NCBI GenBank assembly: GCA_964023275.1
Contig: OZ029913.1
Location: 56,976,858-57,040,857, forward strand
Length of the DNA stretch: 64,000 nucleotides
Reading direction: 5' to 3'
DNA from: Norana najaformis
Lineage: Eukaryota > Annelida > Clitellata > Crassiclitellata > Hormogastridae
The first letter of the stretch is position 1. Each line of letters begins with the position of its first letter. Shown here in pieces: positions 33,901 through 38,316 of the stretch. The position numbers and the translations under genes are program-made. Below the pieces are notes generated by a model. That model was not told the DNA's origin. It was given only the letters and a program-made list of their open reading frames with translations, and ran no database searches.

Positions 33901-36900
33901 GCACGCAAGGCTGTTGTAATAGACTGTTTGCTTGAATCAAGGTCCTTCGCCGACGATGGCCAAGAACAAGGCGTTCCGTCTGTTCTTCAGCATCATTTCG
34001 CCCGAAAGAACACTAAGAACGCCAGTCATCAACGTCAAATCAGCCGTTCTACATCTGGCAAGAAAAACATCGAGTATTGGACCAATCACATACTCTTCAT
34101 AATTTCATCTAAGTTCAACTGTTACAAAATTAAGCTTCGTTAATATCTGAATAGCTGCTGATAAATCTCCGAAGAGGTATGCAACCATGGTAGGACAAAC
34201 CAGGATAGGACAAAACAGGGTAGGACAAACCAGGACAGGACAAACAATGGTAGGACAAACCAGGGTTGGAGAAACCAGGGTAGGACAAACCAGGGAAGGA
34301 CAAACCAGAGTAGAACAAACCAGGGTAGGACAAACCAGGACAGGACAAACCAGGGTAGGACAAACCAGGGTAGGACAAACCAGGGAAGGACAAACCAGAG
34401 TAGGACAAACCAGGATAGGACAAACCAGGGAAGGACAGAGTATCGTTAGTATTTTTCTAAGGTGTTCAGCATCCAACGATTACTTAAACTCAATCAGAAG
34501 AGAATAAAATGTATGATTATTATTTTACCCTAGGTAGATAATTATGATCGCTGAGCATTACAAAAATTAGAGTGAGTACTGTTCTGGGATGGCTATATTA
34601 TTACTTTTGCCTTGTATTATTTTTTGTTTTTTACCCGAGTTAGAAATGATCCCTCAGGCACCAAAAATCAGGTTAGGAGTACATTATTATTATTATTATT
34701 ATTATTATTATTATTATTATTATTATTAGTTACCTGAGGTAAGTGTAACCCCTAATGACAGAAAAATCCAGAGACAATAGGTCTACAAATTTCTGTAACG
34801 GAAACGTATCAAAATTATTGTTATTAATATTATTAATTTTAATAATAATATTAGTAATAATAATATTAATAATTATTACAATGTTACTTTTATTATATGT
34901 TTTTCTAGTATAGCTCCACTATATAGGCCCAATTTGCCAATGACTATAGGCCCTAAATAAGAAGATGATGACGTGAAGCAGTGTGTGCATGAAGAAGCCG
35001 ATTAAACGTAATTAACTGAAGCCTATTTATGTGAATAAGCCGATTAAACGTAATTAACTGAAGCCTATTTATGTGAATTAACCGATTCTCTTCAAATTAA
35101 TTAACAGAAGCCGTTTTGGTTAACGGAAATTTGGACGCATCTCACAAGCGGAAGTTCAAAGGCAAACGCGTGAACGCAGCCGACGATCACGAGACGAAAT
35201 GGAAAGTCAGAATACAAGTCTACAATATGCCTAAGGGAGGTAGGCCGTAAGACAGACAATTACAGACTTCTGTACTGATGTTAAATACTTAATAAATGCT
35301 AATATTAATCTTATACTAATTCCTTCGCTTTTCTTCTTTCCTTCTCCTGCCTTCTTCATTGAATCGTTCAACCTTTCTTTCTTTCTTCCTTTCTTTCTTC
35401 CTCCTTTCTTTCTTCCTCTCTTCCTTCCGTTTTCTTTAGTTTTTCCTTCCTTTCTTCATTGATTTATTGTTTCAAATGATTGGTTTTACGCATTGATTCA
35501 TCGATCAGTTAGTCATTCAGTCACTCATTCAAACACGAAAGCACAGAAAGTCGCTTAAATGTATAGAGCTATATATTTAGGGCGGAATTATAATCTATAT
35601 ACACACGGATGAAAGCTAACTACTCTAAAGCAGCATGACGGCAGATCAGTTCAGTCGTTCCCCTTTCAGAAGAGCGCCAAAAGATTTTGCAGCGAGCCCC
35701 ACGTGATGAAATACGCACCAGCTGACGTCACACCAACGCTCCACCATGCTCTCGATGCGTGGCAGTAAGATTCACCCGGAAATTCGAGGCATGTGATCAC
35801 CGCGAGTCAGCTGGACGCAAGTAACACAAACACGTGATCAATGCGTGCACAAACAAGTCAACAACCCAATGACTCATCGAAGACGTCATGGAAATTTCCG
35901 ATACATACGCACCCTTAAAACCGGCTGACTCAACAGCGGAAAAATACTACACGTTCACATACTAGTTAAAACTACTTTTTTAAAAAATAGTTAACTACTA
36001 TCCAACTACTTATAAGTAGTTTAACTATAAGTTTTTAACTACATTACTTCCTATGTGTATATATGCATACCTATTCGTAAATAGGCCCCTAGCATGCGAT
36101 GCTTGACCAATCGGAAGATACTCTTGGGTTCGAGTCTTCTGTGGCGACTAATAATAAAATCGATAGCTTCTGTTGCTTCTAGAGGTGAAGAAGGCGTTCA
36201 AGTACTTCGAACTGGATCCGCGCAACACGACGCAATGGGTCAGGGTTAACATTCTCAAGGTCGTCGAGGAGTGGCTGAAAACTTCCCGCAAGAACCTCGG
36301 TCTCCAGCTGACGATCGTCAACGGAAAGAACGAGACAGTCAATCCATTTGACGTTTTCCACCAGTTCAACTGCAGTCTTTCCAGGAATCGTATGTCACAC
36401 TGTCAATCTGTATGATAAATAAATAAATACACACATACATACATAAGTAAACAATATTAAATAAATAAATAAATACATAAATAATTTGATTAATGGATCT
36501 ATCGATCATTGATTATTGGTCAGTCTATGTGCGTGCGTGCGTGAGAGTTTGCGTGCATGTGCTTGTGCGTGTGCTTGTGCATGTGTGTGTGCGTGCATGT
36601 GTAGATGTGTGTGTGTGTGCTTGTGCGTGCATGTGTGTGCTTGTGCATGTGTGTGTGTGTGTGTGTGCGTGCGTGGTTGTTTTCAGTTTCTATCTTTACA
36701 TTTGTTTGTATTGAAGACGTGGCTGTGACGACGCATCCGACTGGCGACAGAGGGCAGAACGTCGAAGGCTTCAACCTCCGCAGCAGAAGTCGACTGCTGG
36801 TTGCTAACGACTCGACTGCTGCTGCTGCTGCTGCCAGCATTCCGCATCTCCAGGTCGTTATGGCCAAGGCTCCTCAAAGTACGGCAAAGCGAATCGTGCG

Positions 36901-38316: not shown

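Follow-up and report, generated by a model that had tools for sequence, protein, structure and literature searches.

The 64,000-nucleotide window analysed here, from contig OZ029913.1 of the annelid Norana najaformis, carries at 15983–38316 on the + strand a gene that, judged from its sequence, is an intact, divergent ligand of the TGF-beta superfamily (the focal gene and focal ligand), with a short wrist segment and an extra cysteine, Cys415, in its mature domain. By analogy with known ligands, we tentatively favour the reading that its contact with type I receptors would be weakened and its contact with type II receptors retained, which would make it a decoy or a heterodimer partner; we hold this to be quite possible, if short of probable. 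Genes of the same genome are called "own" below, and papers are cited mostly by PMC number.

The gene was rebuilt from the window sequence as eight exons whose phase-consistent joins give an open precursor of 471 residues. Splice sites are described by percentile, that is, by rank among the sites of the window when these are scored with splice weights. The exons and the features within and between them are as follows.

15983–16221, + strand: exon 1, with the ATG, a hydrophobic N-terminus resembling a signal peptide by eye, and the start of the prodomain.
33124–33332, + strand: exon 2, prodomain, phase-consistent, with a weak acceptor (53.2nd percentile); its start is the least certain.
33942–34073, + strand: exon 3, prodomain, phase-consistent, with a weak donor (47th percentile).
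35108–35239, + strand: exon 4, prodomain, donor at the 98.8th percentile.
36183–36389, + strand: exon 5, prodomain, with NxTxNPxDVFxxxNCS including Cys301.
36717–36959, + strand: exon 6, end of the prodomain, with RIVR at 36890–36901 and the first knot cysteine, C377, at 36926–36928.
37721–37836, + strand: exon 7, fingers 1–2 and the first part of the wrist, starting in phase 1 (acceptor 93.9th, donor 82.5th percentile).
Sites in exon 7, + strand: Cys415 at 37801–37803, His416 at 37804–37806 and the sequon NIT at 37819–37827.
37847–38008, + strand: ATC microsatellite, beginning 10 bases into intron 7 and filling about half of the gap between exons 7 and 8.
38179–38316, + strand: exon 8, with the sequon NGS, CC at 38200–38205, Lys444 at 38230–38232, CGC and the stop (acceptor 99.2nd percentile).

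The exon 1 donor, AAG/GTAAGA, ranks at the 99.9th percentile of GT sites and joins exon 2 in phase 2, and the 17 kb intron between these two exons may, as far as the sequence goes, hide a further exon. Both weak splice sites, those of exons 2 and 3, lie outside the mature domain. A preliminary description had dealt with 36717–38316; the exons there, 36717–36959, 37721–37836 and 38179–38316, do join in consistent phase and carry the cysteine motifs it gave, with residue numbers that are 45 lower throughout than those of the precursor starting at 15983, which we use here. A minimal RxxR cleavage site, RIVR, lies at residues 365–368, and cleavage there would leave 103 residues as the mature chain.

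The mature domain matches Pfam TGF_beta (PF00019) with 54.1 bits (cut-off 27, E 2.9e-14). In the prodomain, residues 219–291, which run from late in exon 4 through most of exon 5, match TGFb_propeptide (PF00688) with 25.4 bits, just below the cut-off of 25.8 (exon 5 alone, 21.6 bits). In the PDB, GDF8 was the best match (E 9e-10); behind it ranked GDF11, an activin/BMP2 chimera, inhibin beta B and BMPs. The two Pfam matches and that to GDF8 indicate that the resemblance is not due to chance. The window holds no second copy of the ligand (other tblastn matches, E 0.73 or worse), and no relative was confirmed in a scan of viral contigs.

The cysteines of the mature domain are 377, 408, 412, 415, 434, 435, 467 and 469, arranged as CKGTC (408/412), CC (434/435) and CGC (467/469). 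The seven conserved cysteines of such ligands are six of the knot and one that forms the interchain bond. The preliminary description counted seven knot cysteines; all seven are present, but they comprise six of the knot and the interchain cysteine, Cys434, which is kept. It was right about an eighth cysteine after CxGxC (its Cys370 in CHRC), which is Cys415. None of 22 other own ligands and nine PDB ligands (eight from the PDB alignments, and TGF-beta2) showed a cysteine between CxGxC and CC.

The own ligands come from searches of the genome (608 Mb, 17 contigs). Twenty-one derive from the 23 places found with the PF00019 profile, where four exon rows make up two ligands, and the twenty-second is a gene on C12 described below; five rows lack the N-terminal part. 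Eighteen are continuous frames, those at C6:34.44 Mb and on C12 follow our own splice calls, and the ends of those at C10:20.88 and C6:2.72 Mb were cut by eye. The last two rows have an X between exons, and their cysteine counts are uncertain because cysteines in frame beyond the cuts were taken as intron. As a separate observation, four own ligands (C6:12.03, C7:34.31, C13:2.77 and C4:2.69 Mb) lack the first CC cysteine, which is the usual interchain one.

Lapraz et al. (PMC4564238) sort ligands into groups of nine, eight (without the interchain cysteine) and seven cysteines. The nine-cysteine class (TGF-beta, activin, myostatin, Panda) has an N-terminal pair of cysteines by the first knot cysteine, which the focal ligand lacks: its mature N-terminus, HLANKMNAC, has a single cysteine, with eight residues between RIVR and C377. 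It differs from the eight-cysteine class of Lefty, GDF3 and GDF9 in keeping CC 434/435, and from the seven-cysteine class of BMPs, GDFs and Nodal in having Cys415 in addition to the seven. With eight cysteines, the interchain one kept and no N-terminal pair, it therefore falls outside all three classes as they are defined. Departures from seven cysteines are not rare, since between five and eight are described for ligands in papers on Mnemiopsis and Halisarca. Our literature search for an extra or additional cysteine found no related paper. The altered dimer interface suggested in the preliminary description is possible from the sequence.

The wrist segment, from CxGxC to CC, has only 21 residues, as described earlier, compared with 25 in GDF8 and GDF11 and 30–35 in the other six of the eight PDB-alignment sequences (30 in BMP2). 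The stretch from CC to CxC keeps 31 residues, the same as in seven of the eight (AMH, 30), so it is the wrist or heel segment that is short and not, as first supposed, a finger. This segment is nine residues shorter than that of BMP2 and four shorter than that of GDF8, and it is rich in Ser, Gly and Asp. The N-H-A motif is absent, as had been said, but it is not as usual as was assumed, since GDF8, with its segment of only 25 residues, and TGF-beta2 also lack it. Both wrist sequons that had been proposed were found again, NIT (421) and NGS (427), and there is a third sequon in the mature domain, NLS at 385. NIT starts nine residues after CxGxC, at the place of NST, the BMP wrist sequon, in BMP2; for BMP6, whether ALK2 is bound depends on glycosylation of the pre-helix loop (PMC12415261).

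Several changes fall on receptor-site positions. In an alignment anchored on the cysteines, Cys415 corresponds to Pro50 of BMP2, His416 to Leu51, Arg396 to the second Trp and Lys444 to Ser88. The replacement of the second Trp by Arg had been reported before and is seen as WKDR, i.e., WxxR in place of WxxW. Leu51 and Ser88 are numbered in the Panda papers (PMC4564238, PMC11239237), which give Leu51 as a critical type I receptor contact. The Leu51 position is polar in the focal ligand and in its relatives on C6 and C12 (H, T and D, respectively), and it is also Ser in the own ligand C1:21.5 and Gln in AMH. The Ile-Ala-Pro knuckle motif, whose residues are used by type II receptors of activins and BMPs (PMC8256043), is kept as IIAP. 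The altered receptor-binding wrist of the preliminary description thus fits the sequence, as the Trp-to-Arg change, Cys415, His416 and the short wrist would all lie in or by the type I site.

Relatives in the same genome share this gene's structure. At fifteen of the 23 PF00019 places a single frame covers profile positions 1 or 2 to 104, which means that these ligands lack both introns of the mature domain. Two ligands have a split like that of the focal gene, C6:34438646-34439635 (− strand) and C12:12448503-12451736 (− strand), hereafter C6 and C12. They were found through weak matches of the focal mature domain (last exons, E 0.66 and E 2.67, respectively) together with a reading of the PF00019 places; the focal gene, C12 and the last exon of C6 are not on the PF00019 list because exons were scored apart. 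In all three genes, with splice sites called from sequence, a phase-1 intron precedes the (E/D)L(G)W region and a phase-0 intron lies shortly before CC. The joined mature exons score 62.9 bits (C6) and 53.4 bits (C12) against TGF_beta, and C12 also 16.4 bits against Cys_knot, below the cut-off of 24; the exons with the first cysteine were not recognised in the stretches read. The wrist segment of C12 has 16 residues and that of C6 has 25 by the preferred acceptor or 18 by a nearer one, compared with 24–27 in own myostatin-like genes and 27–44 in the other own ligands.

The prodomain gives a second line of evidence. A genome search with PF00688 gave 24 places, among them focal exon 5 (21.6 bits) and an exon at C6:34443179 (24.1 bits), both below the cut-off, the latter separated from the downstream C6 finger exon by 3.5 kb. 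The two exons are 35% identical over 65 residues, with a raw score of 133 against a shuffle maximum of 47 (n = 1000); five other prodomain segments score 41–64, four of them above all of their own shuffles, which is to be expected of distant relatives, and the fifth reached by 3 of 1000. Focal and C6 exons have in common NxTxNPxDVFxxxNCS, including Cys301 and its sequon, and an E-x-K-K start after a phase-1 acceptor. A third such exon lies at C8:18811992-18812147 (− strand), whose only other matches below E 0.01 are C6 (2.4e-7) and the focal gene (5.3e-6); all three homologous exons share P-x-D-x-F-xxx-N-C-(S/T). Mature exons belonging to the C8 exon were not found within ~7.5 kb downstream.

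In a tree of the focal ligand with 22 own and six PDB ligands (95 trimmed columns, LG+G4, ultrafast bootstrap), the focal ligand, C6 and C12 stand together with support 79, and the focal ligand pairs with C12 with support 55, both modest values. Three own genes with wrists of 28 residues stand next to them (support 70); we tentatively label these Panda/GDF15-like from their motifs. In a ten-sequence tree the focal ligand is on a long branch. Overall, prodomain and mature domain indicate that the focal ligand and C6 belong to one small ligand family. C12, grouped by its mature domain and introns, and C8, grouped by its prodomain exon, are probably also members, and the wrist may well be shortened throughout the family (focal ligand, C6, C12).

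Two further places, C15:17353709 and C14:22127582, encode mutually similar CxGxC-CC-CxC peptides with weak focal matches (E 1.0 and 3.8, respectively). Neither was retained as a relative: at C15 the peptide proved to be a Cys_knot domain of Pfam (29.1 bits), and that of C14, which resembles it by eye, was set aside. Separately, five own genes (C17:18.17, C9:4.47, C9:25.17, C5:2.64 and C8:18.44 Mb) group with GDF8 with support 98, to our knowledge a large number of myostatin-like genes.

The focal ligand belongs to the TGF-beta superfamily, but we assign it to none of inhibin alpha, Panda, myostatin and BMP. Inhibin alpha has an altered, shortened or replaced wrist and a predicted loss of type I binding, and the lancelet inhibin alpha candidate has a partial wrist deletion (PMC2832003). 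The focal ligand differs in WxxR and in the extra cysteine of its pre-helix loop; its mature chain is not extended N-terminally of C377, and there is no evidence of orthology. Panda, GDF15 and Maverick resemble it in a divergent WxxW, a residue other than Leu at the Leu51 position and an altered Ser88 position (PMC11239237, PMC4564238), but Panda has nine cysteines with the N-terminal pair (PMC4564238), and the Ser88 position is Pro in urchin Panda (PMC11239237), P, N or I in the own Panda-labelled genes and Lys in the focal ligand.

GDF8 and GDF11 give its best PDB matches (GDF8, E 9e-10), the own myostatin-like genes its best matches in the genome (2.2e-6), and GDF8/GDF11 the shortest wrist among PDB ligands (25); the focal ligand, however, lacks their N-terminal cysteine pair, has the four-residue spacing WxxR in place of WxW, a wrist four residues shorter and the extra cysteine. 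With BMP2 and BMP6 it shares the core cysteines and the IxAP knuckle, and with BMP2 also NxT nine residues after CxGxC and 31 residues from CC to CxC. It departs from BMP2 in the nine-residue shortening, the missing NHA and the residues Cys, His, Arg and Lys in place of Pro50, Leu51, the second Trp and Ser88. In the mmTGF-beta2 construct the wrist helix is cut away, as it may be in the focal ligand, but that construct is an engineered, heel-less monomer.

The model that we favour, weakened type I and retained type II contact, can be put as follows. The mature chain would be secreted, cleaved and dimerised through Cys434. It would still contact a type II receptor of the activin/BMP type by the kept knuckle, but its wrist would make poor contact with type I receptors. 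It might then either occupy type II receptors or pair with an ordinary ligand into crippled heterodimers, much as inhibin alpha or Panda do. An extra disulfide from Cys415, formed within the dimer or with a partner chain, would keep the shortened loop in place. While the gene, its cysteines, wrist length, site residues and relatives are read from the sequence, we infer dimerisation, receptor contacts, antagonism and the role of Cys415 by analogy with studied ligands. Deletion of the wrist helix in activin A abolished agonism and left a weak antagonist with a half-maximal inhibitory concentration of 56.7 nM (PMC2832003); the divergent WxxW and the loss of Leu51 in Panda are linked to weak type I binding (PMC11239237, PMC4564238); and sea urchin Panda, with its divergent WxxW, binds and antagonises ACVRII (PMC11239237).

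Several points weigh against this model and against the family grouping. The wrist-deleted activin A competes about tenfold less for ActRIIB (47.6 versus 4.14 nM, PMC2832003), so a decoy role need not follow, and Lys at the Ser88 position may harm type II binding too. The wrist of C6, at 25 residues by the preferred acceptor, equals that of GDF8, and given the 24–27 residues of the own myostatin-like genes, only three residues separate the focal wrist from the next longer one. Both Trp residues are retained in C6 and C12, which have Gln at the Ala34 position. The best other genome matches of the focal mature domain are myostatin-like (C9, E 2.2e-6), with C6 and C12 at only 0.66 and 2.67; C12 as query finds the focal ligand at E 0.89 but a C5 ligand labelled Panda-like at 1.5e-8; and the tree supports of this grouping are below 95.

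The same facts could describe an ordinary signalling ligand that binds type I receptors with low affinity through other contacts, its short wrist and extra cysteine being tolerated drift. We regard this as a distinct possibility, somewhat doubtful. AMH, which lacks both Trp residues, signals through BMP type I receptors (PMC8256043), and AMH, GDF15 and Maverick may likewise use other type I contacts; the wrists of GDF8 and the own myostatin-like genes are themselves short, and the own ligand at C4:2.69 Mb has WxxR together with a wrist of 28 residues. Against drift stand the clustering of a number of separate changes at a single receptor site and the engineered loss of the wrist helix, which abolished the agonism of activin A (PMC2832003).

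A variant compatible with the decoy or heterodimer-partner reading concerns Cys415, which could pair with Cys434 of the same chain, leaving no usual interchain bond and a monomer or a non-covalent dimer. Both residues are near the ends of the shortened loop, and the heel-less mmTGF-beta2 is a soluble monomer (PMC11865472); an unpaired or partner-linked cysteine is equally possible, and we consider the intrachain pairing rather unlikely.

Loss of function in a decaying duplicate would account for the long branch, for a Cys415 unseen elsewhere among the ligands compared and for some weak splice sites, but eight exons form an open frame that retains every knot cysteine as well as the cleavage site, and the prodomain sequon–cysteine signature is common to the focal gene and C6; we hold decay to be quite improbable.

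An exon between 37836 and 38179 restoring a normal finger was named in the preliminary description as what would overturn it. We searched 37857–38178 for open AG...GT stretches of at least 15 bases in phase 0 on both sides, with GC donors and other phases outside the search. Four phase-compatible GT–AG candidates, using two donors, were found in the gap (37837–38178, 342 bases); the donors, at 38062 and 38162, rank at only the 24.3rd and 19.5th percentiles of the GT sites of the window. With three of the candidates inserted (the fourth encodes five residues), the Pfam score was 57.5, 53.6 and 51.0 bits versus 54.1 without. All eight hand-made shuffles of the score-raising insert scored still higher (57.7–61.3 bits; Gly-Ser filler, 53.9), so the gain of 3.4 bits is uninformative on homology. 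The candidate of 102 bases, whose peptide resembles helix plus CC, is the one that lowers the score from 54.1 to 51.0 bits; read on without the last exon, it gives 31.3. Thus, that the short wrist is an annotation artefact and a cassette exon in 37837–38178 restores the helix is most improbable: four open candidates exist and one raises the Pfam score, but its shuffles all do better, both donors rank low, ATC microsatellite takes up about half of the gap, and the sequence does not support such an exon.

The microsatellites 36961–37030 and 37847–38008 lie directly behind donors, beginning 1 base into intron 6 and 10 bases into intron 7, respectively. The four most ATC-like of 350 coding windows of the focal gene overlap the 3' end of exon 7, with 39 of 1000 dinucleotide shuffles reaching the score; an origin of the wrist codons from the adjacent ATC microsatellite is at that frequency a weak hint only and was not adopted. 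Elsewhere in the window, downstream of the focal gene, 50609–51641 (− strand) carries ECT2 (RhoGEF) exons (PDB 6l30, E 2.4e-17, two open frames joined by X). A Pro/Ser-rich open frame of 244 residues at 5828–6559 (+ strand) looks coding by eye and has no Pfam or PDB match. The sequence TAGGCCTA occurs 12 times in the window, compared with ~0.8 expected from base composition.

In its widest form, the proposal is that this lineage independently evolved a family of wrist-truncated ligands that block type II receptors, one member of which had its disulfides rewired by a new cysteine in the pre-helix loop, so that its cysteine pattern belongs to none of the three classes with seven, eight or nine; as a whole, we judge this rather unlikely. 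If true, inhibin alpha and the engineered heel-less TGF-beta would have natural counterparts in this lineage. The ancestor of inhibin alpha is held to have become an antagonist by losing its wrist helix (PMC2832003), and if a comparable lesion arose independently in a second family, we could ask whether the route from growth factor to decoy is repeatable. Cys415 would offer a simple biochemical handle, by disulfide mapping, on how the shortened wrist is held.

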